From Blautia pseudococcoides (lineage in GTDB: Bacteria; Bacillota; Clostridia; Lachnospirales; Lachnospiraceae), in NCBI RefSeq assembly GCF_001689125.2, contig NZ_CP015405.2:959001-1023000 (forward strand): 64,000 nt of DNA, read 5' to 3'. Within the stretch, counting starts at the first letter, position 1; each line of letters starts with the position of its first letter. A program made the position numbers and the translations under genes. The notes beneath the pieces are model-generated. The model ran no database searches. It had not been told where the DNA came from and was given only the letters and a program-made list of their open reading frames with translations. Below, piece by piece: positions 3,991 through 57,800 of the stretch.

Positions 3991-4166
3991 AAGTTGTCAT
4001 TCCTTTCTTATTTCTATTGGCAGGCAGGTGTGAGACTGTCTGTTTTTGGGGATGGTAATTGGCAGTTACGGTCCACGGCACTGCATTTATTGCAGGGCTG
4101 TGAATTTGTAACATACAGTATCATATGATAAAAAGCCGGGGGTTGACATATGGGAAGGGGATGCAC

Positions 4167-4195
4167 TTGTGTTTTTCTTTGATTATTGATAAAAT
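4167..4195 (+). promoter_or_regulatory. Probable promoter for D-lactate dehydrogenase
   Basis: TTGTGT at 4167-4172 and TAAAAT at 4190-4195 are 17 bases apart, about 65 bases before the ldh start. A TTGACA at 4143 lacks a matching -10 at normal spacing. Confidence 0.45.
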
Positions 4196-4260
4196 AAGTA
4201 CGGATTGGGAAACCTATCCGGTAACGGAAACATGATTTGACAAGAACAGGAGGCAAAACT

Positions 4261-5259: not shown

Positions 5260-5260
5260 A

Positions 5261-5941: not shown

Positions 5942-6030
5942 AAATCGCTTCGCGATGGGCTGGATACCTGCTGGCACTACTTTTTCATACGGTCAGCGCA
6001 GTAAATGCGCAGACCTGTCTGAACTGTTAC
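5898..6030. repeat. Palindromic repeat element overlapping the end of queH
   Basis: GTAACAGTTCAG (5898-5909) pairs exactly with CTGAACTGTTAC (5915-5926), and the right-arm 12-mer recurs exactly at 6019-6030. Between them are two further hairpins, a CCATCCAGCC/GGGCTGG pair around ATCGCTTCGCGAT and a GGTCAGCGCA.../TGCGCAGACC pair. Related AACTGTTAC and GTAACTGTGA sequences occur elsewhere in the window. The remaining intergenic sequence up to argH (6031-6199) has one more AACTGTTAC (about 6091) and a GCCGGATAAGCGGC-like hairpin but no gene. Confidence 0.75.
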
Positions 6031-6199
6031 AGAAAAGGGGCAGCAGTGATATGGAAAAATTTCTTGCACGGTACCAAAGATAATGATAAACTGTTACCCA
6101 TAAGCCGGATAAGCGGCTTACGGCTGCAGCAGGTAGCAGAATCCTGGGATAGCCGGAACAATAAATAAATCAATTTGTAAAAAAGTGAGGTACATAAAG

Positions 6200-7579: not shown

Positions 7580-7691
7580 AAAATGCTTGCTTTTTTCCTG
7601 GATTTGTTATAGTATTGTTTAGGAAAAACAAATGTGCGCACAGGAAGAACAATCCCTCCGCACAGAATACATAGACGAGGAGAATTGCCGT

Positions 7692-8777
7692 ATGAGTGAG
7701 AAATTAAGAGTGGGTATATTAGGCGCAACAGGAATGGTAGGACAGAGATTTATCTCTCTGCTTGAAGATCATCCCTGGTTTGAAGTGGTAACTGTGGCCG
7801 CCAGTGCAAGAAGTGCAGGCAGGACATATGAGGAGGCCGTAGGCGGACGCTGGAAAATGGATACTCCCATGCCGGAAGCCGTGAAAAAGCTGGAAGTCAT
7901 GAATGTATCTGAGGTGGAGAAAGTGGCATCCACCGTTGACTTTGTATTCTCTGCTGTTGATATGAGCAAAGAGGAGATCAAAGCCATTGAGGAGGCATAC
8001 GCAAAGACAGAGACACCGGTTGTGTCCAACAACAGCGCACACCGCTGGACACCGGACGTACCTATGGTAGTGCCGGAGATCAATCCGGAGCACTTTGATG
8101 TCATTGAATTCCAGAAAAAACGTCTGGGGACCACAAAAGGCTTCATTGCCGTAAAACCCAACTGTTCCATCCAGAGTTACGCACCGGTGCTCACAGCATG
8201 GAGAGAATTTGAGCCATACGAAGTAGTGGCAACCACTTACCAGGCAATCTCCGGAGCAGGCAAGACCTTCAAAGACTGGCCGGAAATGCAGGGAAATGTG
8301 ATCCCCTTCATCGGTGGTGAGGAAGAGAAAAGCGAGCAGGAACCTCTCCGTCTCTGGGGTGAGATAAGAGACGGCGTGATCGAGAAGGCAGCAGAGCCTG
8401 TTATCACCACCCAGTGTGTGCGTGTGCCGGTACTGAACGGACATACAGCAGCCGTATTTGTAAAATTCAGAAAGAACCCGGCCAAAGAGCAGTTGATCGA
8501 AAAGATGGTGAACTTTAAAGGGGCTCCCCAGGAGTTAGACCTGCCAAGCGCTCCCAAGCAGTTCATCCGCTATATGGAAGAAGACAACCGTCCGCAGGTT
8601 ACCCTGGATGTTGATTATGAAAATGGAATGGGTGTAACGGTAGGTCGTCTGAGAGAGGACAGTGTATATGATTACAAGTTCATCGGCCTTTCTCACAACA
8701 CCGTGCGCGGCGCTGCCGGCGGTGCTGTCCTTTGTGCAGAGACACTGAAAGCCAAAGGATTTATCACAAAAAAATAA
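7692..8777 (+). CDS. asd: Aspartate-semialdehyde dehydrogenase
   Basis: The 361-residue enzyme reduces aspartyl phosphate to aspartate semialdehyde for lysine, threonine, methionine and peptidoglycan precursors. GILGATGMVGQRF is the NADP-binding loop and C158 in VKPNCSIQSY is the catalytic cysteine. The sequence (SAGRTYEEAVGGRW, AISGAGKTFKDWPE) resembles the subfamily typical of archaea, fungi and many clostridia rather than the E. coli type. Start chosen at 7692 (MSEKLRV) because the longer frame extends into a region without family similarity. A possible promoter (TTGCTT 7587, TATAGT 7608) lies about 80 bases upstream. Confidence 0.92.
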   Translation: MSEKLRVGILGATGMVGQRFISLLEDHPWFEVVTVAASARSAGRTYEEAVGGRWKMDTPMPEAVKKLEVMNVSEVEKVASTVDFVFSAVDMSKEEIKAIEEAYAKTETPVVSNNSAHRWTPDVPMVVPEINPEHFDVIEFQKKRLGTTKGFIAVKPNCSIQSYAPVLTAWREFEPYEVVATTYQAISGAGKTFKDWPEMQGNVIPFIGGEEEKSEQEPLRLWGEIRDGVIEKAAEPVITTQCVRVPVLNGHTAAVFVKFRKNPAKEQLIEKMVNFKGAPQELDLPSAPKQFIRYMEEDNRPQVTLDVDYENGMGVTVGRLREDSVYDYKFIGLSHNTVRGAAGGAVLCAETLKAKGFITKK

Positions 8778-8786
8778 AACTTTAAG

Positions 8787-8814
8787 TCAGACCGGGGAGC
8801 TCCCTCCGGTCTGA
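8787..8814 (+). terminator. Hairpin after asd, weak terminator
   Basis: TCAGACCGG and CCGGTCTGA form a perfect 9-base stem around a 10-base loop. No good T run follows, so it may stabilise the mRNA end or only partly terminate. Confidence 0.4.
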
Positions 8815-8835
8815 TTGCATGGAAGAGGAGCTTTT

Positions 8836-10857
8836 ATGAATAAATCTTTATTTATCGCAGAAAAGCCCAGTGTGGCACAGGAATTTGCCAGGGCTCTCAA
8901 AGTCCAGACTGCCCGTCATGACGGATATCTGGAGTCAGAGAACACCATTGTCACCTGGTGCGTAGGTCATCTGGTCACCATGAGCTACCCGGAGAAATAT
9001 GACATGAAATATAAAAAATGGAGTCTGGAGACCCTGCCTTTTCTGCCTGAAGAATTTAAATACGAAGTCATACCGTCCGTATCCAAACAGTTTCAGATCG
9101 TGAGCGGACTACTTAACCGGGATGACGTTTCCACCATCTATGTCTGTACCGACTCCGGGCGGGAGGGAGAGTACATCTACCGCCTGGTTGCCATGATGGC
9201 AGATGTAAAAGACAAGGAACAGAAGAGGGTGTGGATTGACTCCCAGACAGAGGAAGAGATACTTAGGGGAATCCGGGAGGCAAAGGATTTAAGCGCCTAT
9301 GATAATTTATCTGCCTCCGCCTATCTGCGGGCCAAGGAAGATTATCTGATGGGTATTAATTTCTCCCGGCTTCTCTCTTTAAAATATGGCAATGCCATAT
9401 CTAATTACCTGGGCAGCAAATACCAGGCCATATCTGTGGGCCGTGTCATGACCTGTGTTATGGGCATGGTGGTGCGCCGGGAACGGGAAATCCGTGAATT
9501 TGTAAAAACACCCTTTTACCGTGTGCTGGGCAGCTTTTCGGCGGGCGGACACCCCTTCGACGGGGAGTGGCGTGGCGTGGAGGGCAGCCGGTATTTCCAG
9601 TCGCCTTATCTCTATAAGGAGAACGGATTCAAAGAGCGGAAACATGCGGAGGAATTAAAGGCCATTTTGTCGGCTGATCCTCCTTTTAAAGCTGTGGTGG
9701 AGAAGATCGAGAAGAAAAAGGAAAATAAAAATCCGCCTCTTCTTTTTAACCTGGCAGAGCTTCAGAATGAATGCTCCCGCTTATTTAAGATCAGCCCGGA
9801 TGAGACTTTGAAAATTGTCCAGGAGCTGTATGAGAAAAAACTGGTCACTTACCCCAGAACAGATGCCCGTGTGCTCTCCACCGCGGTGGCAAAAGAGATA
9901 CAGAAAAACATTGGCGGTCTGCGTGGGTATGTGCACGGAAAGCCGTTTGCAGAGGAGATCCTGGCAGAGGGCAGTTATAAGGATCTGGCGAAGACAAGAT
10001 ATGTCAATGACAAGCAGATCACAGACCACTATGCTATTATCCCTACGGGACAGGGAATGGGTGCTTTGGGCAGCCTCCATCCCTCTGCGGCGAAGGTTTA
10101 TGAGACTGTGGTGCGCAGGTTTCTGAGTATTTTTTATCCCCCTGCTGTTTACCAGAAGGTGAGTATTGTGTCGGTGATTGAAAAGGAAAGACTGTTTTCC
10201 TCATTTAAGATCCTGGTCTCCGAGGGATACTTGAAGGTGGTGCAGAACTCTTTTGCAAAAAAGAAGGAGGAGAGTGCCCAGGAGGAAGGGGAGCAGACAG
10301 AAGATACCAGCTTCTTGGAAATACTGCAGACCATCAAAAAGGGCAGTGAGCTGGATATCACGGATTTCCAGATAAAAGAGGGGGAGACATCCCCGCCGAA
10401 ACGTTACACCTCAGGTTCCATGATCCTGGCTATGGAAAATGCCGGGCAGCTCATCGAGGACGAGGAGCTGAGAGCACAGATAAAGGGAAGCGGAATCGGC
10501 ACCAGTGCCACCAGGGCGGAAATTTTGAAAAAGCTTATGACCATCAAATATCTGGCCCTGAATAAGAAGACACAGGTCATCACCCCCACTTTGCTGGGAG
10601 AGATGATCTTTGACGTGGTCAATGCCTCCATCCGTTCCCTGCTGAACCCGGAGCTTACGGCAAGCTGGGAGAAAGGACTTACTTATGTGGCTGAGGGGGA
10701 GATCACCCCGGACGAATACATGGAAAAGCTGGAGAATTTTGTCAGAAGCAGAACCCAGGGCGTGCTGGGACTGAGAAATCAACTGGCGCTGAAGCAATTT
10801 TTTGACGCGGCGGCCGTATATTACAAAAAAGCCGGAAAATCCGGCGGAAAGAGGTAA
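8836..10857 (+). CDS. topB: DNA topoisomerase III
   Basis: A 673-residue type IA topoisomerase. The N-terminal TOPRIM domain begins FIAEKPSVAQEFARAL and contains DSGREGEYIYR (acidic metal-binding residues); Y339 in TYPRTDAR is the predicted strand-cleaving tyrosine. The C-terminal part carries GIGTSATRAEILKKL. It relaxes negative supercoils and resolves single-strand junctions. AGAGGAG at 8824-8830 precedes the ATG by 5 bases. A charged insert around 10260-10310 (KKKEESAQEEGEQTED) looks like a flexible loop. The next gene begins 5 bases downstream. Single chromosomal copies and mobile-element copies occur in this family; the location beside housekeeping genes suggests chromosomal. Confidence 0.92.
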   Translation: MNKSLFIAEKPSVAQEFARALKVQTARHDGYLESENTIVTWCVGHLVTMSYPEKYDMKYKKWSLETLPFLPEEFKYEVIPSVSKQFQIVSGLLNRDDVSTIYVCTDSGREGEYIYRLVAMMADVKDKEQKRVWIDSQTEEEILRGIREAKDLSAYDNLSASAYLRAKEDYLMGINFSRLLSLKYGNAISNYLGSKYQAISVGRVMTCVMGMVVRREREIREFVKTPFYRVLGSFSAGGHPFDGEWRGVEGSRYFQSPYLYKENGFKERKHAEELKAILSADPPFKAVVEKIEKKKENKNPPLLFNLAELQNECSRLFKISPDETLKIVQELYEKKLVTYPRTDARVLSTAVAKEIQKNIGGLRGYVHGKPFAEEILAEGSYKDLAKTRYVNDKQITDHYAIIPTGQGMGALGSLHPSAAKVYETVVRRFLSIFYPPAVYQKVSIVSVIEKERLFSSFKILVSEGYLKVVQNSFAKKKEESAQEEGEQTEDTSFLEILQTIKKGSELDITDFQIKEGETSPPKRYTSGSMILAMENAGQLIEDEELRAQIKGSGIGTSATRAEILKKLMTIKYLALNKKTQVITPTLLGEMIFDVVNASIRSLLNPELTASWEKGLTYVAEGEITPDEYMEKLENFVRSRTQGVLGLRNQLALKQFFDAAAVYYKKAGKSGGKR

Positions 10858-10862
10858 AGAGA

Positions 10863-11537
10863 ATGGAACAGTTAAAAATCAGTGAATTATACAGTGATTT
10901 AAACCAGACAATGGCAAAAGAACTTCTGGAAAGCAAGACCTATCCCTGGGAAGCGCTTCCCTTCATCAGTGGATTTATCGTTAAACTGGGCAGCACGCTC
11001 AGTGAGGAAGAGTATGAGAAAAGAGGGGAGAATGTGTGGATCGCCAAGTCCGCAAAGGTTGCACCCACGGCATTCATCAATGGTCCTGCGATCATCGGCA
11101 AAGACGCGGAAGTACGCCACTGCGCATTTATCCGCGGGAATGCGCTGGTTGGGGAAGGGGCTGTTGTGGGGAATTCCACAGAGCTTAAAAATGTGATCCT
11201 GTTCAATAAAGTACAGGTTCCCCACTACAATTACGTGGGGGATTCTATTCTGGGATTTAAGTCTCATATGGGGGCAGGCTCCATCACCTCCAATGTAAAG
11301 TCTGATAAAAAGCTGGTGGTGGTAAAAGGCGCGTCAGAAAAGATTGAGACAGGACTGAAAAAATTCGGTGCCATGCTGGGGGATGAAGTGGAAGTGGGAT
11401 GCGGTTCTGTACTGAATCCGGGAACTGTGATCGGAAGCCACAGCAACATTTATCCTCTGTCCTCAGTGCGCGGAGTGGTTCCGGCTGACAGTATCTATAA
11501 GAATAAGAACGAAGTGGTGGAGAAGATAGAAGAATAA
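10863..11537 (+). CDS. Left-handed beta-helix (LbetaH) acyltransferase-like protein
   Basis: A 224-residue protein with hexapeptide-repeat sequence from about residue 58 (VWIAKSAKVAPTAFINGPAIIGKDAEVRHCAFIRGNALVGEGAVVGNSTELKN), which folds as a parallel left-handed helix. It resembles the C-terminal half of GlmU and is often annotated as a UDP-GlcNAc pyrophosphorylase or sugar acyltransferase, but no nucleotidyltransferase domain is present. Substrate is therefore unknown. It probably forms an operon with topB (5-base gap). Confidence 0.75.
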   Translation: MEQLKISELYSDLNQTMAKELLESKTYPWEALPFISGFIVKLGSTLSEEEYEKRGENVWIAKSAKVAPTAFINGPAIIGKDAEVRHCAFIRGNALVGEGAVVGNSTELKNVILFNKVQVPHYNYVGDSILGFKSHMGAGSITSNVKSDKKLVVVKGASEKIETGLKKFGAMLGDEVEVGCGSVLNPGTVIGSHSNIYPLSSVRGVVPADSIYKNKNEVVEKIEE

Positions 11538-29603: not shown

Positions 29604-29639
29604 TATACACGTGATACTGATTGATAAAGTATTATAAAA

Positions 29640-29720
29640 AATAAAGGGGCAAAACTGTCGTAAGGCGGTGACGCAAAGCCACGGGTCCCAAGGGAGGGAC
29701 AGCCGGGCTGCAGACATGGA
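29640..29720 (+). promoter_or_regulatory. Cyclic di-GMP-I (GEMM-I) riboswitch aptamer
   Basis: Conserved elements appear in order: GGGGCAAA, then a stem ACTGTC-GTAA-GGCGGT with a GNRA loop (P2), GACGCAAAGCCACGGG, a GTCCC/GGGAC stem (P3), and AGCCGGGCTGC. This is the class I c-di-GMP aptamer pattern. It lies about 95 bases before the start of the M60-type surface protein, with a terminator between. Class I switches often, but not always, turn expression off when c-di-GMP is high. Confidence 0.9.
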
Positions 29721-29756
29721 TGGACAGGTGTATTCTGACCGTCTGTTGTCTTTATG

Positions 29757-29786
29757 AAAAAACGATATCCCTGGATATCGTTTTTT
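29757..29786 (+). terminator. Terminator in the riboswitch leader (expression platform)
   Basis: AAAAAACGATATCC, loop CTG-type, GGATATCGTTTTTT: a perfect stem ending in six T residues, 29 bases before the start codon of the surface protein. Its place after the aptamer and before the gene suggests regulated transcription termination. Confidence 0.85.
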
Positions 29787-29814
29787 GGCCCTGAAAAGGG
29801 AAGGAGAATAAAAA

Positions 29815-32800
29815 TTGAAAATGAAAAAGTTATGTGCCTGGCTGCTTGTATCAGGTATGCTTTTGCAGACACCCGGAACCACCGTATTTGCCGCTGGGCC
29901 GGGGCAGAGCGGGAGATTTTTAGACGCTGGCGGACAGGCCCGGAGGGAAGAGGCAGGCATCAGCCTGCTGACGGAGAAGCAGGAAAAACAGGCGGAGGTA
30001 CCGAAGAATGGTGAGATGCCGGGAGAGCAGATAGAAGCGCCGATAACAGGTGAGGGATCAGGAGCGCCGGCCACAGGTGAGACGCCGGGAGGCCAGACGG
30101 GAACGCCGGCCACAGGTGAGACGCCGGGAGGCCAGACGGGAGCGCCGGCCACAGGTGAGACGCCGGGAGACCAGACGGGAGCGCCGGCCACAGGTGAGAC
30201 GTCAGGAGACCAGGCAGAAGCACCGAAGAAAGAAGAGACACCGGGCAGCCAGGAGGAGTCAGGGAAACAGTCCGGTGCGCAGGAGGAGCAGAATGGGGAA
30301 ACAACACCCGGAGCGGAAGCAGGGAATGGGACGCTGCAAGGCCAGCTCCATCTGAGTCTGATCTACACGCTTCCTTACAGTGACCTGGAGACTTTGAACA
30401 GTGGATTGCAGGCGGTTCTTACAAGGGAAGGCCAGCAGTTTGACGCGGCTTTTTCCATGCAGGAAGGGGAGAGCGTTTCTAAAAAGGCGGAGGCTTCTTT
30501 TGTGGATCTGGAACCCGGAGAATATCATCTTCATATAAGCGGAGGCAGTTTTGCCGCATATGACCAGGACGTGGTAATACAGGCCATGGATCAAAAGATG
30601 CAGTTTCTGGATGTCTATACAGGAATGGATTTATCTGACATGGAGAAACATCCCGGTGTGGTAGGATACGGAGATGTGGATCATGACGGCGTCATAGATG
30701 AAAACGATAAGACCCAGTTAATTCAGGCCATACATCAGGAAAATACGGAATCCGCATATGACTTAAATCAGGACCAGAAAGTGGATTTAGTGGATTTACA
30801 ATGGTTTTCTTACAGCTATGGCTATGAGAAAACAGAAGCTTATGTGACAAGAAGCTATCTTCTGGATGAAATAGCGGCTAACGTAGGCGCTTCCACCCAG
30901 GTGGCAGAGGGAAGTGTTGAGAGCATTTTAGGTGATGGCGGAAGTGTTTCCCTGAAGCCTGCAAACGATGAAGAAATCTCAGCAGAAAATCCTGTGGAAT
31001 TACAGCTTGATCTGGAAAAACGTTCTGATATACTGGCAGGCGCTCTGGTGCTGACTCCGCCAAGAGATTCCGCCAATATCATCCAGGCAGGAACAGTGAC
31101 GGTGGAGTATGAAGACGAGAACGGGCAGCCTCAAACCATTGAAGTTCCCATAAGCAGCGCAGCTATGTTTGCCCTCACGGCGGCACAGGCAGTCATGGAA
31201 CCGGACGGCACCATTATCGTCAATCTGGGAAAACAGGTTGCTGTTAAAAAGGTAGTCATCAAGGTGACAGATACCGGAGGGAGCAAGCTGGCGGATATCT
31301 CCAAAGTTGAATTCCTCAACGGAATGGAGGACAGGATTCCTGCTCCGGTCATGAATATTCCTGACCAGGTAAAAGCAGAGCCGGGGGATAAGAAATTCAC
31401 TGTGACCTGGAACGCACAGACCAATGTGGCGGGATATGAAGTTATGGTGAAAAAGGACGGGAAAAGCAAGGTCTACCCCACAGCAGAGAACAGTATCCTT
31501 ATCACAAGCTTTGGCACAGAAAAAATGAAAAACAATGAGGAATACACCGTTCAGGTCCGCTCCGTGAACGGGGACTGGAGCAGTGCGTATTCAGAAGCAG
31601 TGACTGTGATCCCGAAACCTTCAAAAGCTCCTGACGCGCCGGAAAATGTGAATATTGCCGGAGGCTACAGAAAGCTGGATATCACCTGGAAGCAGATGGA
31701 AGATACAGATTCCTACACACTCTACTACAGGGAAAAAGGGACAGAAGCGTTTGAAAAGAAAGAAGAGATCAAGCAGAATAAATATCAGCTTACTGATTTA
31801 AAAGACAGCACCACATATGAGATTTGTCTTACGGGAACAAATGAAATGGGAACCAGCGGCAAGTCAAAGATCTATGCAGGTGAGACAACGGATATTAATC
31901 CTGCGGTTACCTCCAATTACAAACTGATCAATACGCCTTTGGAGGGCGGGGGACTCACCGCGCATATTACATCCATTGACTATCCTTCGGCAAAGCCTGA
32001 GACAGATGCAGCGGTTGCAGATAATGATTACACCACTTCCTGGAGTCTGAACTCCTGGGATGCGGGCGGTTTTAATGCAGGAAAGCCGTCCCCCATCATT
32101 ACCTTTGACCAGAGCTATGAGATGGACAGGCTGGTGGTAGTGCCGGATGAAAAACAGCAGTATGCCTATGGCTATGCGAAGACAAAATATTGGGATGAAA
32201 ACGGCACTGAGAAAATGATCGACGGCCATTTCACCCAGAAAAAGAGCGTGAACGGAAAAGTATATTATGAATTTAATTATTCCCAGCCATTTAAGGCAAA
32301 ACGAATCCAGATAAACTTTGCCATGGCATGGGCGCCCTCAGACGGAAGGGTTTCCATAGCGGAGATGAAGTTCTACTATTATGACAGTCTGGAAAAAGAG
32401 GTGGACGGTTTGTTTGCGGACACCATGCACGTGGAACTCCGGGAGGATGTAACGGCCGCTGTCATTGAGGAATTGGAAAAAAGAGCGGACACGCCGGATG
32501 AAGTAACGGGTGATCATCATCCGAAACGAGAGCTTCTGCTTTCTGATCTGGCCTATGCAAAAGAACTTCTCAACGACAAAAATGCCGGAAGGGTTATGAA
32601 AGTAGATACCTCCGTGACCAAGAAAAAAGACGGCGCTCTGGGATTTTCCGGCGGTCTGAATGCATGGCAGCCTCTTGGCATCAGCGCCCATGCAGGGGAA
32701 GAACTGGCAGTGTATGTGGGAAGAGATGACGCGGATCTGGGTGCCAATACAAACCTGAACCTGGTTGCCACACAGTACCATGCGGAGTCAGGAAACTGGA

Positions 32801-35277
32801 GCAAGGTGGTCGTGCAGAATCTAAAGAACGGCAAAAATGAAGTGACGATCCCTCAGATAGGAAGCTTAAACACAGAACACGGCGGCAGTCTCTATGTGGA
32901 ATTTACAGGAAATAATGACGCGCTGAATATGAGCGTGCGTGTAAGCGGAGGACAGGAGATACCCAAGCTTGACCTGTCAGGCGCAGCAGATGAGACGGAG
33001 GCCAAGGACGCTGTAAGGGCTTATGTGGAAAAACTCAATACATATGTTCCTGAGATCGCAGAGCTGCACAAGAAACTGCACGAAGGCAAGAAAGAGAGCG
33101 GCTGTGACTACAGCTATGACAAACAGAACTGTATTCTGGGGGCAACGGACATTGTGCTGAACCAGATGATGTATTCCGTTTCAGCGGAACAGATACTGAA
33201 CGGTATTAACAGCAGACTGAAAAGCCAGGGAAAAGACATCACCCCGGATAATCAGACAGAAGTATTATACGAATCCTGCCAGGCCATGGAACAGATGGTG
33301 ACACTGTTTTATCAGCATAAAGGCCTGGGAGATTATCATGGCGACAAGACACTGACCGCACAGTATGGCAGCAAAAACAGCCTGCCGTCCAGCCGTCTGA
33401 ATATACGATATATGAGAATGTTTTCCGGTGCCTTTATGTATGCCGGCGGACTTCATATCGGGATCGAGTGGGGCAGTATTGCCGGGCTTGCGCGCAGCGT
33501 GCCGGTGCAGAGTGACAACGGCAGGTATGTGAGCGGACAGTTGTTTGGATGGGGAATCGCCCATGAAATAGGCCATATTATCAATCAGCCTTCTTATGCC
33601 ATTGCTGAGATAACCAATAACTATTATTCCATTCTGGCGCAGGCAAAGGAAACAAATGATTCTGTGCGGTATAAATATGAGGATGTATATAAAAAAGTCA
33701 CCTCAGGTACAAAAGGCCGCGCGGAAAATGTATTCACAAGCCTTGCAATGTACTGGCAGCTCCATTTGGCATATGATGACGGATATAATTATAAGACCTA
33801 TGAAAATTATGAGGAACAGTTTAACAGCCTTTTCTTCGCAAGAGTGGATGCTTATGCAAGGAATACAGCCATTGCGCCGGCTCCGGACGGAATCGCGCTG
33901 ACGATTCCGAAAGATACAGACAATACCCTGATACGTCTTTCCTGTGCAGCTGCCGAAAAAAACTTACTGGAGTTCTTTGAACAGTGGGGCATGACACCGG
34001 ATGAGGATACCATTGCTTACGCATCGCAGTTTGAAGCAGAGACAAGAAGGATCAGCTATATTACAGATGAAGCGAGAGCGTACCGCATTGAGGGCGGAGA
34101 AAGTACAGCAGCCCAGGCAGCGGTGAGTGCCGCCCTGGCATATGTGCCGAATTCCAATCAGGTAACCATCACCCTAGCCAATGATGCGGCTGATCAAAAT
34201 TCCATGCTGGGGTATGAAATATACAGAAACGGCCAGGTGATCGGATTTGCGGAGGCGAATGACGGTATTGTGACATATACGGACACCATCGCATCTATGA
34301 ACAACAGAGTATTTACTTATGAAGTGGTGGGGTATGATAAACTGCTGCAGCAGACAGAGAAGGTTACGGCAGATACTGTGAAAATTTCCAATGACGGAAG
34401 TGTGGCAAAGGATGGATGGAAGATTACCACAAATATGACATCCTCCAGTGACCAGCATGAGGAAGGAAATGAAGATAACCCTGAGGGAAGCACCGTGTCG
34501 GGAATCGGCAGCATTTGCAACAATGACTACACAGATGTGTATACCGGAGAGGCGAAATCACCGGAACTTGTCATCAGCTTTGGCAGAACCCTTCAGGCTG
34601 CCGCATTCAAGATCACAGCCGCTGACACGAAAACCGCTGTCAAAAATTTTGACGCCTATATCAGCCAGGATGGAAAACAGTGGACACCTGTAAAAACAGG
34701 AAGCTTGGCATATTCGGAAAATACGGCTGTCTCCTATTTTAACAAAGAAGGGGATTCCTGGATGTATACCTATGACGCGGCGTATTTGAAGCTGAAGATC
34801 AAGGGGCAGAGCACAGTATCTTTGTCTGAGATAGATATTTTAGGACCTACGGGAGATAATGTGGAGCTGCTTGAAAATGGTATGGGCATTCTGGATGAAG
34901 ATTACAGCTATGATGAAAACGGAGGCAGGATACCTGCAGGTTCCCTGATCTTCACAGGGGAATATAAAGGAAATCCGTCCTACAATGTAGTGAAACTGTA
35001 TGACCAGGACGGAAATATCCTGGATGGTTCCCAGTTGATCTTCGCGGAGGTTCCGGCTGAAGGAGAATTAGGAGAAGTTTCATCCGGTACATGGATTTAC
35101 TATATGGAGCCGGATCAGATTCCAGCCGGCGTGACCAGTGTCAGGGCGGAATTATATCGGGTGGATGATGCCCATACAAATGAAGGGGAGCGTCTCGTAA
35201 GTGACACGCTTCCAATGGATGTGCCGAATCCGCTGCCGCCGATCCATTTGACAGACAACCATGAGGAGGGGAACTGA
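29815..35277 (+). CDS. Secreted M60-type zinc metallopeptidase with dockerin-like module
   Basis: An 1,820-residue secreted protein. AAGGAG at 29801-29806 lies 8 bases before TTG 29815, favouring this start over ATG 29821. Order of parts: signal peptide to about residue 26; four 13-residue Pro/Thr/Gly repeats (83-134); dockerin-like module (285-337) with two Ca loops D287-D289-D291-D298 and D316-N318-D320-D327; two FN3 domains (about 510-690); F5/8C-like binding domain (about 700-860); M60/enhancin-type peptidase with H1250-E-I-G-H1254 preceded by LFGWGIA; second discoidin-like region (about 1525-1680). M60 enzymes cut mucin glycoproteins. There is no wall-sorting signal, so the dockerin may anchor it to the next protein. 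Controlled by the c-di-GMP leader. Confidence 0.87.
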   Translation: MKMKKLCAWLLVSGMLLQTPGTTVFAAGPGQSGRFLDAGGQARREEAGISLLTEKQEKQAEVPKNGEMPGEQIEAPITGEGSGAPATGETPGGQTGTPATGETPGGQTGAPATGETPGDQTGAPATGETSGDQAEAPKKEETPGSQEESGKQSGAQEEQNGETTPGAEAGNGTLQGQLHLSLIYTLPYSDLETLNSGLQAVLTREGQQFDAAFSMQEGESVSKKAEASFVDLEPGEYHLHISGGSFAAYDQDVVIQAMDQKMQFLDVYTGMDLSDMEKHPGVVGYGDVDHDGVIDENDKTQLIQAIHQENTESAYDLNQDQKVDLVDLQWFSYSYGYEKTEAYVTRSYLLDEIAANVGASTQVAEGSVESILGDGGSVSLKPANDEEISAENPVELQLDLEKRSDILAGALVLTPPRDSANIIQAGTVTVEYEDENGQPQTIEVPISSAAMFALTAAQAVMEPDGTIIVNLGKQVAVKKVVIKVTDTGGSKLADISKVEFLNGMEDRIPAPVMNIPDQVKAEPGDKKFTVTWNAQTNVAGYEVMVKKDGKSKVYPTAENSILITSFGTEKMKNNEEYTVQVRSVNGDWSSAYSEAVTVIPKPSKAPDAPENVNIAGGYRKLDITWKQMEDTDSYTLYYREKGTEAFEKKEEIKQNKYQLTDLKDSTTYEICLTGTNEMGTSGKSKIYAGETTDINPAVTSNYKLINTPLEGGGLTAHITSIDYPSAKPETDAAVADNDYTTSWSLNSWDAGGFNAGKPSPIITFDQSYEMDRLVVVPDEKQQYAYGYAKTKYWDENGTEKMIDGHFTQKKSVNGKVYYEFNYSQPFKAKRIQINFAMAWAPSDGRVSIAEMKFYYYDSLEKEVDGLFADTMHVELREDVTAAVIEELEKRADTPDEVTGDHHPKRELLLSDLAYAKELLNDKNAGRVMKVDTSVTKKKDGALGFSGGLNAWQPLGISAHAGEELAVYVGRDDADLGANTNLNLVATQYHAESGNWSKVVVQNLKNGKNEVTIPQIGSLNTEHGGSLYVEFTGNNDALNMSVRVSGGQEIPKLDLSGAADETEAKDAVRAYVEKLNTYVPEIAELHKKLHEGKKESGCDYSYDKQNCILGATDIVLNQMMYSVSAEQILNGINSRLKSQGKDITPDNQTEVLYESCQAMEQMVTLFYQHKGLGDYHGDKTLTAQYGSKNSLPSSRLNIRYMRMFSGAFMYAGGLHIGIEWGSIAGLARSVPVQSDNGRYVSGQLFGWGIAHEIGHIINQPSYAIAEITNNYYSILAQAKETNDSVRYKYEDVYKKVTSGTKGRAENVFTSLAMYWQLHLAYDDGYNYKTYENYEEQFNSLFFARVDAYARNTAIAPAPDGIALTIPKDTDNTLIRLSCAAAEKNLLEFFEQWGMTPDEDTIAYASQFEAETRRISYITDEARAYRIEGGESTAAQAAVSAALAYVPNSNQVTITLANDAADQNSMLGYEIYRNGQVIGFAEANDGIVTYTDTIASMNNRVFTYEVVGYDKLLQQTEKVTADTVKISNDGSVAKDGWKITTNMTSSSDQHEEGNEDNPEGSTVSGIGSICNNDYTDVYTGEAKSPELVISFGRTLQAAAFKITAADTKTAVKNFDAYISQDGKQWTPVKTGSLAYSENTAVSYFNKEGDSWMYTYDAAYLKLKIKGQSTVSLSEIDILGPTGDNVELLENGMGILDEDYSYDENGGRIPAGSLIFTGEYKGNPSYNVVKLYDQDGNILDGSQLIFAEVPAEGELGEVSSGTWIYYMEPDQIPAGVTSVRAELYRVDDAHTNEGERLVSDTLPMDVPNPLPPIHLTDNHEEGN
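30061..30216 (+). repeat. Four 39-base tandem repeats in the M60 protein gene
   Basis: Four in-phase 39-base units encode G-A/T-P-A-T-G-E-T-P/S-G-G/D-Q-T/A. The units are nearly identical at DNA level, which predicts length variation between strains. The encoded stretch is probably a flexible, exposed linker. Confidence 0.9.
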
Positions 35278-36620
35278 TGAAAAGAATTAAGAGTTTATGC
35301 ATTGCTTTGGTTTTGGCATTGTTGGTGACTTATGTTCCCGTATCTGCCGCAGTGCAGGATGATACCATGATCAAAATGCAGCAGAAGGATACGAGCCAGG
35401 TAGAACTGGCTCTCTATCCCAATGGGGATATGATAAAGAACCACTCGACAACATTTCGGATCCAAATGCGGATAACAGAGGAGGAAAGTGGAAGTATCGG
35501 TGAGATTCATTTTGCTTTCTCGGAAGATATACAGAACAGGTGTAAAATCCGGGAGTATTTTTATGAAAACGGTATTCTGGATATCTATTTTTCATCCGCA
35601 GGGACTGTCTTTGAACAGGCTCAGGATGTGGTGATCGGCACGATCTCAGGTATACCCAGCGGCGAAATGTTCCAGGCATCCATTGCTCCGGAAAGTATTA
35701 TGTATGTTGACCAGAGCCATCAAATGAAACAGGTGGATGAAGGGGTGCTGCAGGGAATATCTTACCAGTGGGCAGTAGGGGAGAAAGTGCCAGACCCGGA
35801 TGATCCAAATCCGGATAATCCAAACCCGGACAACCCAGATAAGCCAGATCCAGACAAGCCAAATCCGGACGACAACCCGGAGTATCCGGATGGGGTATGT
35901 ACAGCTTTCACTTACGAGGAACTGGAAAAGGGTTTGGCAGATTCCAGCGTGACGAGTCTGATCTATAAAAGCAAAGATGGAAATGGTTTGACAAAAGAAC
36001 AGCAGAAGACATTATTTAAGAGCCTGAAAGGCACAGAAAGAACACTGACCATCATGGCGGAGGAAAAAGGACAGCTTTTGTATTCCTGGAAATTCACAGG
36101 AACAGGGATAGCAAACATAGATACTGCCATAGATTTTGGAATTGCCAAGAGCAAAGAGAACAAGAATGCTGGCAGCCTGATGGCAAAGGATGCAGAGAAT
36201 TTGTATCTGGAATTTGCCCATGAGGGAGAACTTCCGGGATTGGCGGAAATTGAACTATATGCAGGGGACAGCTTTAAAGACGGGCAGAACCTTTACCTGT
36301 ATTATTACAATACCAAGAAGAACGCAGTGGAACCAATCCAGAAAAGTATCAAGGTTGTGGACGGATATGTGACCATTCAGATTGAACACTGTTCCACATA
36401 CATTCTTACCACAAAGACGGTACGCAAAGATGAACGGTTTCCTGCTGTATCGGTGAATAAAACAGACAGTACAAAAAAGACACCGGTAAAACCCACAACA
36501 AAAACAACAGCTAAGACGGCGAAAACAGGAGATAACACACCAGTGGAAGGACTGCTCCTGCTGGCAGGGCTTTCTGCAGCCGCCATGATCCTGATCGGGA
36601 AAAGCAGAAAGAAAATTTAA
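35277..36620 (+). CDS. Sortase-anchored surface protein, possible cohesin-like partner
   Basis: A 447-residue wall protein whose ATG overlaps the stop of the M60 gene by 1 base, behind an AGGAGGGG site. Signal peptide to about residue 26; a beta-rich domain at 30-165 (GSIGEIHFAFSEDI, VVIGTISGIPSGEMF) of about cohesin size; a Pro/Asp/Asn-rich spacer (about 172-206); a second beta domain to about 395; a Thr/Lys-rich stretch; then a C-terminal sorting signal with AKTGD (415-419), a hydrophobic segment and RKKI. AKTGD replaces classical LPXTG. The pairing with a dockerin-bearing, unanchored enzyme suggests that it docks that enzyme; the cohesin assignment is inference from layout and composition. 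Confidence 0.8.
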   Translation: MKRIKSLCIALVLALLVTYVPVSAAVQDDTMIKMQQKDTSQVELALYPNGDMIKNHSTTFRIQMRITEEESGSIGEIHFAFSEDIQNRCKIREYFYENGILDIYFSSAGTVFEQAQDVVIGTISGIPSGEMFQASIAPESIMYVDQSHQMKQVDEGVLQGISYQWAVGEKVPDPDDPNPDNPNPDNPDKPDPDKPNPDDNPEYPDGVCTAFTYEELEKGLADSSVTSLIYKSKDGNGLTKEQQKTLFKSLKGTERTLTIMAEEKGQLLYSWKFTGTGIANIDTAIDFGIAKSKENKNAGSLMAKDAENLYLEFAHEGELPGLAEIELYAGDSFKDGQNLYLYYYNTKKNAVEPIQKSIKVVDGYVTIQIEHCSTYILTTKTVRKDERFPAVSVNKTDSTKKTPVKPTTKTTAKTAKTGDNTPVEGLLLLAGLSAAAMILIGKSRKKI

Positions 36621-36661: not shown

Positions 36662-37052
36662 GGGTATGACGGGCATGCGGTCAGTCTGTGGTGAAAGTCC
36701 GCAAGGGGCGTAGTTGCCGACGGCGGATAAGCTGGCCCAAGACAGCGAAGTCCTAAAGGCAACCGTAACCCATGTGCGTAAATCGGGCAGGTAGACGAGG
36801 AAAGACTGGCAGGCTTATCCCGTGAGGTCTCACAGGCGGTGAAACTCACCGTAGTAACAACGAGCTGTGAGAAGTCAGCAGAAGCCGTAGTATGCAAGGT
36901 TCTGAAATGGATGTTGCCAAAGGGCTGAACAATGTAACCGTGAAATCAAATGTATGCTTAATGGAATACCTGACAGCAGGAATGGCAAAACGTAAATAGC
37001 AGGTACTGCACAACTTAGGGCGAACCCATGGGAACGGAAAGGAGAAAGCACA

Positions 37053-37377
37053 CAAGGCAATTGTCAGAACTGTTAGAAAAGATACTGTCCAAAGACAACA
37101 TGAATGCCGCATACAAAAGAGTCTGTGCCAATAAAGGTGCAGGAGGAAAGATAGAGGGAAACAGTGGAAAGTGCCGAAGAAACGGCCATGGGGATTGCAG
37201 AAGCTAGGGATAGGAAAAGACCTTGCAAGGCTGACAGCATACTGTGGAGAACGCTAGTATTGGTTCGCCACCAAAACGTGTGTCAGCAGAGCAATCTCCA
37301 AAGACGTACTAGGTAAAGCAGGACTTATAAGCTGTCTTGACTATTATAATGAGCGCCATGCTTTAAAGTTATGTTGA
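37053..37377 (+). pseudogene. Deleted reverse transcriptase/maturase of the outer intron
   Basis: The frame starts near 37053 with LSELLEKILSKDNMNAAYKRV and CANKGAGG, the N terminus of a group II intron reverse transcriptase, then skips directly to C-terminal sequence (KLGIGKDLARLTAYCGER, then YYNERHALKLC before a TGA at 37377) in a different frame. Roughly 300 residues, including the YADD site, are absent. The intron would need a maturase from elsewhere. Confidence 0.78.
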
Positions 37378-37410
37378 ACAGCCGTATGCCCAACGGCATG
37401 TACGGTGGTG

Positions 37411-39243
37411 GTGTGCCATGCAAGGCATACAGAAGATGAAGGTAGGTCCTTCGACAGGAATTGAACAGGCAAGCCTGTCAAATCACTCTAATGCTGCTGT
37501 GATTCAGGTCATGGTAGTGAGCGATTAGAGAAAAGGTTGTACAAACAATCAGATATGATACATGAAGATGAATGAAAATGAACCATTGAAGAAGTGTCGA
37601 AAGCGTAAGATTTCTGCAAAACTTACTTTTCACCACTGAGTAAGGATGAGGATGGAGGAAACCTGTAAAGCTGACCATCCGTGGAACGGCATTAAGATGG
37701 CATGAGCATGTATCAGGCTTCTGTGTGAAACATGGGAACCTGTAGAATAATGAAAATCGAAAAGATTCAAGTCACAGAAAGATAAGGTCGAAAGTAGAGA
37801 CGTATTCTACAGGGGCGGAGTTACTCGTAGTAGTGTTGAAGTTGTTGTAATGACAATGGAGCAAAGGGGTAACATCATTCTGCTTGATACTGAAAACAAC
37901 TAGGAAACTAGGAGGATTTGATGAGCGAGAGCAAACAATACGAAATACCAAAGAAAGTGGTTATTGAAGCTTATAAGAGAGTAAAAGCAAACAAAGGAAG
38001 TGCGGGAATTGATGGTATAGATTTTGAACAGTTTGAAAAGAAACTGAATAATAATCTATATAAGATATGGAATCGAATGAGTTCAGGAAGTTATTTTCCA
38101 TCTCCGGTATTAGCGGTAGAAATACCAAAGAAAACTGGTGGAACCAGGAGATTGGGCATACCAACTATTACAGATAGAATTGCACAGATGGCTGCAAGAA
38201 TGTATGTAGAACCTGTGGTAGAGCCCATGTTTTGCGATGACTCATATGGGTACAGACCAAACAAGTCTGCAATTGATGCAATAGCAACAGCAAGAAAGCG
38301 ATGTTGGAGATATGATTATGTCATTGAATTAGATGTAAAAGGATTGTTCGATAACATCGATCATGAACTTCTAATGAAGGTTGTAGCAAGGCATGTAAAA
38401 GAAGAATGGATATGTCTCTATATAAAACGATGGCTAGAAATTCCGTTTGTAACAAGAGAGGGGCATGTAATTGAGAGATTGTCTGGGACACCACAAGGAG
38501 GAGTAATAAGTCCAGTTTTAGCAAACATGTTTTTGCATTATGTATTCGATATGTGGATGGAAAGAAATTTCCCACAAGCACCATTTGAAAGATATGCGGA
38601 TGATGGATTAATACATTGCCGTACAAAAGAGGAAGCTATCTTCATAAAAGAAAAGTTAGCAAATAGACTTGAGGAATGTAAGCTAGAACTGCATCCTATT
38701 AAAACAAGAATAGTGTATTGTAAGGATAAGGACAGAACCAGGGAGGAAGAACTTACAGAGTTCGATTTTCTTGGTTATACATTCAAAGCAGTATACATCA
38801 TGTGTAAAGATGGAAAAATCAGACATAACTTTATTGCATCTGTAAGCAACTCTTCATCTAAAAGCTTTCGAGAAAAAATAAAGGCTATGGAAGTTCATAA
38901 GAGGACAGGGTGCAAAATAGACATCATAGCAGAAATGCTGAATCCCTTAATTCGTGGTTGGATGAACTATTTTGGTAAGTTCAATCCATCGGCAATGAAG
39001 GGAACGTTACAATGTATTGAAAGAAGACTTGTGAAATGGGCTATGTGTAAGTACAAGAACTTTCGAGGTAGACGACGTAGAGCAGAGAAATGGCTCTACA
39101 CCGTGAGACAGCGAGAGCCAAAACTGTTTGCTCACTGGAGCAATTTATATTCGTATTGTTGAATGATAAGAGCCGTATGAAAGGAGACTTTCACGTACGG
39201 TTCCGGGAGAAGTTTGAGGTGAAAGTCCTCTTACTTACTCGAC
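37411..39243 (+). mobile_element. Inner group II intron nested in the outer intron
   Basis: Begins GTGTGCCATGC at 37411, matching the GTGYG 5' consensus, directly after domain V of the outer intron. The body includes the typical CTACAGGGGCGGAGTTACTC segment (about 37810), the intact reverse transcriptase gene, domain V at 39170-39203 (GAGCCGTATGAAAGG...CACGTACGGTTC) and a domain VI ending CTTACTTACTCGAC at 39243. The 3' end AC fits the AY rule. Confidence 0.82.
37921..39162 (+). CDS. ltrA: Group II intron reverse transcriptase/maturase
   Basis: A 413-residue intron-encoded protein with reverse transcriptase blocks (GSAGIDGIDFEQFEKKL, IPKKTGGTRRLGIPTITDR, GYRPNKSAIDA, ELDVKGLFDNIDH, GTPQGGVISPVLANM), the catalytic Y225-A-D-D228 and a maturase domain X (LNPLIRGWMNYFGKF). 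No C-terminal HNH endonuclease domain is visible, so mobility probably uses target nicks from replication. GGAGG at 37911 supports ATG 37921 over TTG 37918. All motifs appear intact, so the inner intron may be active and could also splice or mobilise the deleted outer one. Confidence 0.93.
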   Translation: MSESKQYEIPKKVVIEAYKRVKANKGSAGIDGIDFEQFEKKLNNNLYKIWNRMSSGSYFPSPVLAVEIPKKTGGTRRLGIPTITDRIAQMAARMYVEPVVEPMFCDDSYGYRPNKSAIDAIATARKRCWRYDYVIELDVKGLFDNIDHELLMKVVARHVKEEWICLYIKRWLEIPFVTREGHVIERLSGTPQGGVISPVLANMFLHYVFDMWMERNFPQAPFERYADDGLIHCRTKEEAIFIKEKLANRLEECKLELHPIKTRIVYCKDKDRTREEELTEFDFLGYTFKAVYIMCKDGKIRHNFIASVSNSSSKSFREKIKAMEVHKRTGCKIDIIAEMLNPLIRGWMNYFGKFNPSAMKGTLQCIERRLVKWAMCKYKNFRGRRRRAEKWLYTVRQREPKLFAHWSNLYSYC

Positions 39244-53275: not shown

Positions 53276-54817
53276 ATGAAAAAGAGGATGAAATCTATCT
53301 GCTGCCTGATGCTGGCCGCGTCACTGACTGCCGGGCTTCTTGCCGGATGCGGCAGTGACAGTACAAAGGCCGGGAATGAGGAGCAGAATAAGCAGGAGGA
53401 AGAAGCGGAAGGGAAGGACGAGAATGACCAGTCTGCTGTGAAACTCGATCCGGACAAACCAATCTCCATCACAGTCTGGCATTACTATAATGGTGCCCAG
53501 CAGGTGGCTTTTGATGAACTTGTCAATGAGTTCAATGAGACTGTGGGAAAAGAAAAAGGCATCTTTGTAAAAGGGTACAGCCAGGGAAATGTAAATGAAC
53601 TGGAGGACACTGTGATGGCCTCCCTGAATGAGGAAGTGGGGGCTCAGGAAATGCCCAATATTTTCTCAGCTTACGCAGACGCGGCCTACACGGTGGACAG
53701 CAGAGGGAAGCTGGCAGATATCTCTGCCTATATGTCCCAGGAGGAACTGGATGAATACGTGGATTCCTATATAGAGGAGGGAAGGATCGGTGAAGGCAAT
53801 ACGCTCCGTATTTTCCCCACAGCAAAGTCCAGTGAGATCTTTATGATGAATAAAACAGACTGGGATAAATTCGCGGAGGCAGCCGGTGCGACACTGGAAG
53901 ATCTCTCCACCTTGGAGGGCGTAACGGAAACCGCACAAAAGTATTACGAGTGGACAGACTCTCTGACCCCGGATGTGCCGGAGGACGGAAAAGCTTTTTA
54001 TGGAAGAGATTCGGTTGCGAACCTTTTTGTCATAGGCTCCAAACAACAGGGCCAGGATATTTTCCAGGTGGAGAACGGCAAAGCATCCGTTGCAGCAGAC
54101 CAAGAGATCATGAAGAAAATATGGGATAATTTCTATGTGCCCTTTGTGAAGGGATACTTTACAGCATATGGAAAATTCCGCTCAGATGATGTGAAAATAG
54201 GAGAGATCCTGGCATTTACAGGTTCCTCCACAGCATCCATGTATTTCCCGGATGAGGTGGAACAGGAGGACAATGTTTACCCCATCGACTATATGGTCCT
54301 GCCCGCGCCCTCTTTTGCGGACGGAGGTGATTATATTGTGCAGCAGGGAGCCGGAATGGTTGTCACAGAGACAACCAAGGAGGAGGAATACGCCTCGGTA
54401 CTATTTTTGAAGTGGTTCACAGAGACAGAGAACAATATCCGTTTTAGCTGCGCATCAGGATATCTTCCGGTGAAGAAGGCGGCAAATTCCCTGGAGGCTG
54501 TTGACAAGGTGGTTGCCGGGCAGGGACTGGAGATCCCGGACAAGACTTATGATGTTTTAGACAGCCTGTTCGGTACTCTGGAAGATGCAACGCCATATAC
54601 CACCAAGGCTTTTGAGAACGGAACAGAGGCCAGGAAAGTTCTGGAGTATAATATGGCAGATAAGGCAGCGGAGGACAGAATGGCTGTACAGGAGCTGATC
54701 GCCCAGGGACAGACCCTGGAGGAGGCATGTGCATCTTATGTGTCTGAGGAGTCCTTCCAGAGCTGGTATAATGACTTTGTTGCGGCTTTGCAGAATATCT
54801 TGAATAAAGTAGAATAA
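53276..54817 (+). CDS. Extracellular solute-binding lipoprotein (family 1)
   Basis: A 513-residue lipoprotein with lipobox LLAGC (C25) and a family-1 sugar-binding fold (ITVWHYYNGAQQVAFDELVNEFNETV). The acidic linker after the lipobox is typical of surface attachment. It has no permease or ATPase neighbours; instead a hybrid histidine kinase gene follows 14 bases downstream. This suggests a sensory binding protein that presents its ligand to the kinase's Cache domain. Ligand class (oligosaccharide) is by family only. Confidence 0.85.
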   Translation: MKKRMKSICCLMLAASLTAGLLAGCGSDSTKAGNEEQNKQEEEAEGKDENDQSAVKLDPDKPISITVWHYYNGAQQVAFDELVNEFNETVGKEKGIFVKGYSQGNVNELEDTVMASLNEEVGAQEMPNIFSAYADAAYTVDSRGKLADISAYMSQEELDEYVDSYIEEGRIGEGNTLRIFPTAKSSEIFMMNKTDWDKFAEAAGATLEDLSTLEGVTETAQKYYEWTDSLTPDVPEDGKAFYGRDSVANLFVIGSKQQGQDIFQVENGKASVAADQEIMKKIWDNFYVPFVKGYFTAYGKFRSDDVKIGEILAFTGSSTASMYFPDEVEQEDNVYPIDYMVLPAPSFADGGDYIVQQGAGMVVTETTKEEEYASVLFLKWFTETENNIRFSCASGYLPVKKAANSLEAVDKVVAGQGLEIPDKTYDVLDSLFGTLEDATPYTTKAFENGTEARKVLEYNMADKAAEDRMAVQELIAQGQTLEEACASYVSEESFQSWYNDFVAALQNILNKVE

Positions 54818-54830
54818 GGCGGAATAAAAA

Positions 54831-57800
54831 ATGAGGAAAAGAAAGTGGACTATATTGGCGCTGTTTTGCATCCCTCTCATTGGGGTGCTTGTGATACAAA
54901 GCCTTCTTTCATACGGAACCGTCCTGATCGGCGGCACAATGCGGCTGCTGGACTCCTATGCTGTGGGAATTATGGAACAGACAGTGGAGAACAGGAAAAT
55001 TACGTTGGAAAACAATATGGTCCAGCACTGGATGGAAGTCAGTGAAAATGAGGAGAAAATCAGCAGGGAGCTGGATTCCCTTCTGTCATTTAACCGGATA
55101 ACAGTGGAGGAGTTTCTGGATGACAGCGGGCTCCAGAAACAGCTCCTGCAGAATACAGCGCTGTCCAGCCTGTATCAGCTCAGAAAAAATGAGGTGACAG
55201 GCAGTTTCCTGGTTTTGGCCAATCAAGACGAGGAGAATGAAGAGGGCAGCATGACATGCAGAGGATATTATTTCAGAGATGCTGACCCATCCGCAAATTC
55301 ACTGGATTACTCTGATGTGCTCATGGAGCGCGGAGGCAGGGATATTGTCCATCAGACAGGGGTTGCCCTGGACAGCTACTGGACTACGGATTTTACGTTT
55401 GAGCCTTCCGGGAAGAATTCCAGGGATAACTTCTTTTACAAACCTTATGAAGCGGCACTGGAAACCCCAAATGCCAGCTATACAAACCTTGGATACTGGA
55501 GCAGTCCCTTCTCCCTGAACGAAGGTAAGAGCGGCGGGGAATATCCTGCGCTTACCTACTCGGTCCCTCTGATCAGCAACGGGGTGGTGTACGGGGTTAT
55601 GGGCGTGGAGGTGTCCAGCAGCCATATTGTGGATATGCTTCCAGCCGGTGAACTGAATAAAAATGAACAGAGCGGGTATCTTCTGGTTAAGAGTACGGAG
55701 AAGAACAAGTGGGCTCCTCTTGTGGCCTCCGGAGTCCTGGGAGAACGGCTCCGGGCGCTGGGGCCGTTTCTGAATGTCCAGGAGAGCAAATTTGACCAGG
55801 TCTATACTCTGGATGAGGATGAAGATGACGGAAAGCTTTACGCATCGGCGAAAAAGCTGCATCTCTATAATACCAATACGCCTTTTGAGGATGAGGAATG
55901 GCTCCTTGTGGGGATTCAGAAGGACGATGCCATTTTCGGGATCGGACAGCAGATTTTGTGGAAGGTATTGGCAGCGATCCTGGCAGCCCTTGTATTTGGG
56001 ATTATCTGTACCTACCTGGTGGCGAACCATGTGACCGATCCCATCCGGCGTCTGGCAGAATGTATACGCAGCAGTACCGGCAAGAGTCTGGAACGTTTTA
56101 AAGCCTCCGGTGTGTCGGAGGTGGATGAGCTGTATGATGTGGTGAAAAATCTGACCAGACGGCAGGAAATGGCTGAGAGGGGACTGACAGAGGAAAAGGA
56201 AAGGTACCGGATCGCGCTGCAGAGCAGTGACGATATTTTCTTTACATATGATTTAGGCAAAGAGGAAATTGAATTGTTCAACTATCCTCAGCGTGACGGA
56301 CAGGCAGTCAGATATAAAATCACGGAGAACCTGGAGCTCTTAAGCAGCCGGACTTTTATGGAGGATATCAGTAAGTTAAAAAGAGCATTCTACGGGGATG
56401 AAGATGAGATCCATATAGAATTCCGCGGAAAAAGAGGGGGCACTGAGGAATTCCGCTGGAGGCTGTTAAAGGGTGAGGTGATCCGGGATGAGAACGGCGG
56501 GAAAAGCAAGATCATCGGCAGCATACGGGATATCCATGAGCAGAAGATGCAGGAACTCAGGGAGATTGAATCCGCAAAGCGGGACCCTATCACAAAACTG
56601 CATACACAGAGAGAGGGACGGCGGTATCTGACAGAGGTGCTTGCCCGGGGGGACAGTGGATGCATGGCGCTACTGGATCTGGATGAATTTCGGATACTGA
56701 ATGAAACCTATGGCCTTATCTTCGGGGATGTGATCCTGGAAGAGATCGGAAGTCTGCTCCTTACAAAAAAAGAACAGCTAAAGCGGACAGAGGCAAGAGA
56801 GATCATATTGGTGCGCCAGGGCGGAGATGAAATCCTTATCTGGCTTGCAGGGTTTACCAGGGAGGAGACAGAGCAGTTTTTAGATGAGGTGCGAAGAGAG
56901 ATCGCCCAGCTTTACCAGGGAGCAGAATTCAGCATTCACTTATCCGCAGGAGCCTGTATGAGGAATAACACTAACCTGGGATATGTCCAGCTTTTGCGCC
57001 GGGTGCGATGCGCCCTGACTTTTGCAAAGCAGAAAAAGGACGGCAGGGTGTATTTCTACCGGGAGATCCCAAGCCAGACAAAGGAAAATATCCTGACGGA
57101 GATCAATGATATAGCCAGCATCACCAGCGGTCCCCAGCTTAATATGGTATCCCTCACCCTGAACTTCTTTGACAAGGGCGGGGATATGGCTTCCATTCTG
57201 GCAGTGCTCTTTGTCAAGATGGGACATTATTACGGGGCGACGGACATCCTGATGACTTCCGTGGACCGGGATTTCCATACGGCTTATATTTCCCATCAGT
57301 GGCATAAGAATCCTGCAGATTATCAGGGGAAGGATATGAAGCGCTTTACCGCAGAGGAATTCAAAGCGCTTGCAGAGCAGTACAGAGGTGAGCCTTTCCT
57401 GCTTGACGGGAAACAGATGACAGAGCAGCAGCGGAAGTTTCTCATGCTGCCTGAGAGAAAAAGGGGCTTCAGTGTCCCCATGACAGATGGTGGAAAATAC
57501 ATAGGCTCCATAACGCTGTTGGCAGAAGAAGGGGCGGTTCTGTGGGATAAAAAGGAGCAGAGCAACATCCAGGAGGCTGCCAAGATCATAGAGAATAACT
57601 TAAACAAAGTCCATTATGACCAGGCCAGCAAGGCAAAAAGTGAATTCCTCTCCAGAATGTCCCATGAGATCCGAACACCTATGAATGCTATTATAGGTAT
57701 GACGGAAATTGCCATGCAGGATAGGGAGGTACCGCCAAAGGTGCAGACATATCTGGAAAAAATCAGTACCTCTTCGGACTATCTTCTTTCGCTGATTAAT

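Follow-up and report, generated by a model that had tools for sequence, protein, structure and literature searches.

A secreted M60 protease and its neighbouring cohesin-like surface protein: a predicted one-enzyme dock in Blautia and other Lachnospiraceae

Within a 64,000-nucleotide (nt) stretch of the Blautia pseudococcoides genome (hereafter the window; bases 959001-1023000 of the single 5.13-Mb contig) we analyzed a two-gene unit that lies behind a class I cyclic di-GMP (c-di-GMP) riboswitch aptamer, and that encodes a giant secreted M60-type protease with an internal dockerin, followed by a smaller surface protein (the partner) whose N-terminal module is predicted to fold as a cohesin (Table 1). 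It is likely, in our view, that the neighbouring protein is a wall receptor that holds the secreted protease through the dockerin and the cohesin-like module, forming a dedicated tether for one enzyme. The unit would thus make a protease of the O-glycopeptidase type together with its wall-held receptor, supplied by the overlapping next gene; the internal dockerin would bind the receptor's N-terminal module, presumably with calcium, and one protease per receptor would be displayed at the cell surface. The partner's tail would be sorted to the wall, the protease would act on mucin, and c-di-GMP, through the leader, would set the amount of the pair, either upward or downward. This proposal is carried by the arrangement of the two genes and their overlap, by the dockerin and M60 domains of the first protein and the cohesin fold predicted for the second, and by the family-wide linkage of module and protease, with their fusions.

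Table 1. Features of the protease-partner unit in the window
Feature	Position	Strand	Basis
Class I c-di-GMP riboswitch aptamer	29639..29716	+	RF03167 and RF01051 covariance matches
Terminator-like hairpin with U run, 13-bp stem, CCUG loop	29757..29786	+	read in sequence; present in predicted fold
Secreted 1820-amino-acid (aa) dockerin/fn3/M60 peptidase (open reading frame 1, ORF 1)	29815..35277	+	ORF, Pfam, PDB relatives; TTG start, ATG 29821 alternative
Type I dockerin, residues 285-330, two calcium-loop repeats	30667..30804	+	PF00404, E 1.9e-6
Peptidase_M60 catalytic region, residues 1244-1392	33544..33990	+	PF13402 match and HEIGH
447-aa surface partner (ORF 2)	35277..36620	+	start overlaps protease stop (TGATG); AGGAGG upstream
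Cohesin-like module (predicted), residues 31-168	35367..35780	+	AlphaFold2, fold searches, family profile
Second domain of partner, about residues 206-384, no Pfam name	35892..36428	+	common to Bacilli proteins
Sortase-type tail: KTGD, hydrophobic stretch, basic end	36522..36617	+	motif reading

A preliminary description of this DNA had read the first protein as a giant M60-type peptidase with a two-loop dockerin and no wall anchor, and all three elements were borne out: PF13402 matched with 43.1 bits (cut-off 25.8), the HEXXH motif being HEIGH at residue 1250; the type I dockerin profile PF00404 matched with 28.4 bits (cut-off 22.9), with loops starting at residue 287; and no wall anchor was seen on inspection by eye, by which the signal peptides of both ORFs were also assigned. 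Pfam further places two fn3 stretches in the protease, as well as an F5/8-type region that scores below cut-off, and its sequence relatives in PDB are 5kdn/5kdu, 5kdj, 6xsz (ZmpC), 6xsx (ZmpA) and 7jfs. According to PMC7518263, O-glycopeptides are substrates of the M60 enzymes BT4244 and ZmpB (5KDU); mucin may be supposed as the substrate here. In the translation, short near-perfect repeats of the ATGETPG type follow the signal region (30040-30230, forward strand).

The final base of the protease stop codon (35277) is also the first base of the partner's start codon, an overlap that the preliminary description had given. Named close relatives of the partner are proteins of Blautia hominis and Blautia marasmi; no Pfam match in it reached cut-off, and NCBIfam gave nothing useful. 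AlphaFold2 modelled its residues 31-168 as a cohesin fold, consistent with the cohesin-size beta domain proposed earlier and contrary to the lack of such a fold that would have counted against it, and the module of a remote relative modelled likewise. For the window model, cohesins make up 15 of the 24 structures that Foldseek matched with E ≤0.001 and all of the top 25 rows of VIA, with Clostridium perfringens cohesins among the best structures; for the second model the top 33 VIA rows are all cohesins, and the same group is best. The cohesin jelly roll is seen in predicted models only.

Several results speak against calling the module a cohesin. VIA only re-aligns Foldseek's matches, and Foldseek itself ranks a collagen-binding domain (7lgr, E 1.7e-5) first for the window model, with the cohesin 2vo8 at E 2.2e-5; the same structure ranks third for the second model. 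The Pfam cohesin profile PF00963 was found in none of 26 family modules at E 1, the window's included, and had no match in the window partner at E 10. PDB searches by phmmer and by profile gave no cohesin for partner or module. HHalign of the 26 modules against 24 Pfam cohesins returned P 0.04-0.046, which we take as no evidence because a control region scored 0.0024, and a hidden Markov model (HMM) of Lachnospiraceae cohesins found no window-type partner convincingly. No sequence method ties the module to known cohesins, and its cohesin identity comes from the fold models, on which we judge that it probably belongs to an undescribed cohesin clade undetected by the Pfam cohesin profile.

The collagen-binding domains, which the window model matches at Foldseek ranks 1, 6, 12 and 20, point to an alternative that we regard as unlikely, namely that the partner is an adhesin for host material with a jelly roll like that of collagen adhesins, that the protease shaves or releases it or acts beside it, and that the dockerin binds elsewhere. 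Clostridioides difficile offers a precedent: according to PMC6200980, c-di-GMP riboswitches likewise control a secreted metalloprotease, ZmpI, and wall-anchored proteins, but in opposite directions, with c-di-GMP raising two sortase-dependent proteins and lowering the protease that cleaves them. Here, by contrast, both genes share one operon and one leader. Moreover, most of the significant Foldseek matches and the top VIA rows are cohesins, no collagen-binding domain occurs among the 50 VIA matches listed for the window model, and the fusion of module and protease at three loci, described below, is easier to explain for a docking part than for a substrate.

Searching 397 Lachnospiraceae genomes, we found the protease in 37 (39 matches, 34 genera); loci were read for 30 of these matches and then for two more. 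An alignment of 30 proteases shows almost no variation at the loop positions of the dockerin; one row (L121) is cut short before reaching that module. In 25 of the 30 loci a script picked up a partner carrying the module downstream of the protease, and in L098 one was recognised by eye; L124 stops at a contig edge, so that a partner is not assessable there. Three loci (L118, L119 and L121) have no partner gene, the module being fused to the C-terminus of the protease (E 6.3e-28, 3.8e-22 and 1.6e-23, respectively). A further dockerin follows the fused module (by Pfam in L119, by eye in L118 and L121), and L118 and L119 have the internal dockerin too; such a chain might fold back on itself or assemble into polymers.

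A module profile matched in 35 of the 37 protease genomes and behind 36 of the 39 protease matches (the fusions counted), every time on the same strand and 2-559 nt past the end of the protease match. When 299 family genomes were searched, 29 of them protease genomes as judged by genome handle numbers, 31 matched at E 0.001, and all 27 strong matches (E <1e-17) were in protease genomes; the four others, from genomes that lack a protease match, were weak (E 2.9e-5 to 7.9e-4) and do not enter the strong count. The Fisher test that we used for this linkage ignores shared ancestry, and remote modules elsewhere may be missed because most of the sequences behind the profile came from neighbours of the protease. 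Blautia parvula has the same gene order as the window, and since aptamer, protease and partner all recur in Faecalicatena orotica, the unit is not a chance arrangement. The protease-module pair is not a local accident, and its conservation and the fusions add to the evidence that the preliminary description had.

Four observations count against the proposed dock. PF00404 matches just 17 of the 30 proteases at E 0.001, and a full partner occurs in only 3 of the 20 Blautia genomes searched. Two genomes (G179 and G242) have the protease and no match to the module profile; their proteases are the least similar ones, with dockerin-like loops by eye, and are followed by an overlapping gene with a signal-like start, whose product gave only weak scores with the module profile in a two-sequence test (E 0.073 in G242 and 0.0046 in G179) and was left uncounted. 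Finally, a partial Mantel test over 27 loci gave r 0.22 for dockerin and cohesin given the catalytic domain; other protease parts reach 0.25-0.39, so that the distance matrices give no sign of co-evolution peculiar to the dockerin.

The partner had been described as sortase-anchored; its tail does carry the motif, hydrophobic stretch and basic end of such proteins, but the LPXTG anchor profile PF00746 had no match in it at E 10, so this part holds by motif reading. Counting those of G179 and G242, 24 downstream proteins are complete at the C-terminus. Half of them (12) finish with a hydrophobic stretch and a basic tail, 10 of these showing a TGD/TED-type motif as well; six have choline-binding-type repeats, and six have neither anchor type by pattern. 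A constant cohesin-like module with varying wall attachment is what would be expected of a receptor. The second domain of the window partner recurs in proteins of many uncultured Bacilli (L010-L041).

By PF00404 the genome has two dockerin proteins. The other one, at locus L006, is 2182 aa long with FIVAR, F5/8, malectin and Big_3 domains; 39 nt behind it comes the gene of a 267-aa anchor protein of the LPXTG type that contains a cohesin, the two together spanning 3496-10887 (forward strand). This cohesin matches the HMM of family cohesins at E 9.5e-17 and the PDB cohesin 2xdh at E 0.022 (phmmer), and is borderline for PF00963 (29.3 bits in one search, unmatched in three others, in two of which the filters of hmmscan discarded it). 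The two loci, each with a dockerin giant and a cohesin anchor, suggest that the genome uses the same plan twice with cohesins of two kinds, and because of the second pair the exclusivity of the window pair can only be presumed. It is quite improbable, we think, that the window protease docks on the L006 anchor or on a foreign scaffold, with its neighbour being a separate surface protein. Cohesins are available for this, in the genome itself and, by PF00963, in 83 of 200 family genomes; however, the L006 cohesin sits behind its own dockerin gene, and the cohesin-like module accompanies the protease in 36 of its 39 matches.

The class I c-di-GMP aptamer of the preliminary description was confirmed: a mismatch to RF01051, one of the counter-findings fixed in advance, was not what we saw, the score being 66.1 bits against a gathering cut-off of 35. 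The aptamer also matches RF03167, c-di-GMP-I-GGC, with 63.2 bits (cut-off 59), and this is the match that cmscan retained. We take G29648, A29675 and C29711 to correspond to G20, A47 and C92 of the Vc2 aptamer, and on this mapping, which is our own, all three contacts are retained. In the binding core, G in the RF03167 consensus (GACGCGAA) is replaced in the window by A (GACGCAAA; GACGCAAAG) at the position equivalent to A47, which is the canonical state. The ligand contacts of c-di-GMP-I aptamers are G20, A47 and C92 according to PMC4744006. The GGC label probably refers to the ligand-contact bases, and the G-for-A substitution taken as the GGC trait is not present in the window aptamer. Because of the A at this position, c-di-GMP is the expected ligand. 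That the aptamer belongs instead to the GGC variant class with another ligand, leaving the pair outside c-di-GMP control, seems very improbable: the retained RF03167 match would suit it, but the canonical A and the RF01051 match argue otherwise.

The terminator proposed downstream of the aptamer is supported by a hairpin with a U run in both sequence and predicted fold, but a consensus terminator scan found none and leaves this hairpin unlisted. The leaders of B. parvula and F. orotica also contain hairpins with U runs, and folding of four leaders gave no on/off assignment for c-di-GMP.

Outside the window, 29 further protease loci were scanned for the aptamer, at least 600 nt of upstream sequence being available in 27 of them, and one (L103) had it. 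In total it occurs at 4 of 32 loci, namely the window, B. parvula (L008), F. orotica (L009) and L103; F. orotica keeps it although its partner is just 34% identical to that of the window. The riboswitch is therefore a lineage-restricted add-on outside the core device, and of the c-di-GMP-tuned, self-contained device envisaged earlier, the tuning would apply to the window pair and few others. At L007 (1043-7021, reverse strand), the only other c-di-GMP-I match in the genome lies ahead of an exopolysaccharide locus with Polysacc_synt_2, Wzz and ATPase genes. The genome has 25 GGDEF and 9 EAL matches above cut-off. A hybrid histidine kinase with GGDEF (54831-58763, forward strand), adjoining a solute-binding protein (53276-54817), is a possible local c-di-GMP input.

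The preliminary claim that such a system is undescribed was too strong, as published precedents exist. According to PMC12997984, the Limousia mucinolysome has several scaffoldins with as many as 12 cohesins and a large set of dockerin enzymes; it resembles the present pair in cohesin-dockerin assembly for mucin degradation, dockerin-bearing peptidases and a scaffoldin with a sortase motif, and differs from it in that here one enzyme and one cohesin-like module, of a clade that Pfam does not see, are encoded by overlapping genes behind a c-di-GMP aptamer. Neither M60 nor c-di-GMP occurs in that paper. With two dockerin proteins in the genome and one module in the partner model, rather than several cohesins and several dockerin enzymes, the term mucinolysome or cellulosome-like does not apply here. 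The C. perfringens X82 cohesin/dockerin glycosidases (PDB 2vo8, 2jh2 and 2w1n) are structural matches to our modules, and FIVAR is shared with some partners (3 of 10 scanned, one just under cut-off); in strain ATCC 13124, however, all five cohesin proteins bear a glycoside hydrolase domain (PMC12997984), whereas here the module is on a non-enzymatic-looking surface protein adjoining the protease. The O-glycopeptidases ZmpA, ZmpB, ZmpC and BT4244, compared over catalytic region and flanks, are alike there, but in our protease a dockerin lies within the chain and the gene of the proposed receptor comes next. Among the Creative Commons-licensed PubMed Central matches listed, judged by titles and the starts of abstracts, none reports this pair, the Limousia paper being the nearest.

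What is new is the predicted cohesin clade, its one-to-one pairing across the family and the riboswitch link, the cohesin-dockerin assembly of mucin-active enzymes being already known. On balance we favour a broader reading, in which a new cohesin clade evolved to receive a single protease family exclusively, making a minimal one-enzyme, one-receptor dock in 35 of the 37 Lachnospiraceae genomes found to encode the peptidase. Wall attachment would have been exchanged between sortase-type tail and choline-binding repeats, the module would have been fused to the enzyme along with a second dockerin in three cases, and a c-di-GMP riboswitch would have been acquired in Blautia, in Faecalicatena and in one further genome, which would tie the proteolysis of mucus to signalling in the sessile state. 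Lachnospiraceae are a common gut family, some members of which would, if this is correct, hold a mucin-type protease on their surface by a compact dockerin-cohesin pair of a new sequence type. Since profile-based annotation misses this predicted cohesin, surveys that require a Pfam cohesin would undercount docking systems; in Blautia, c-di-GMP would have a direct link to mucus attack.

Downstream of the partner gene, the window contains a group II intron (36850-39243, forward strand, approximate bounds) with a reverse transcriptase (RT) ORF at 37918-39162. B. parvula has no RT-type ORF between the partner and the next gene among ORFs of at least 200 aa.
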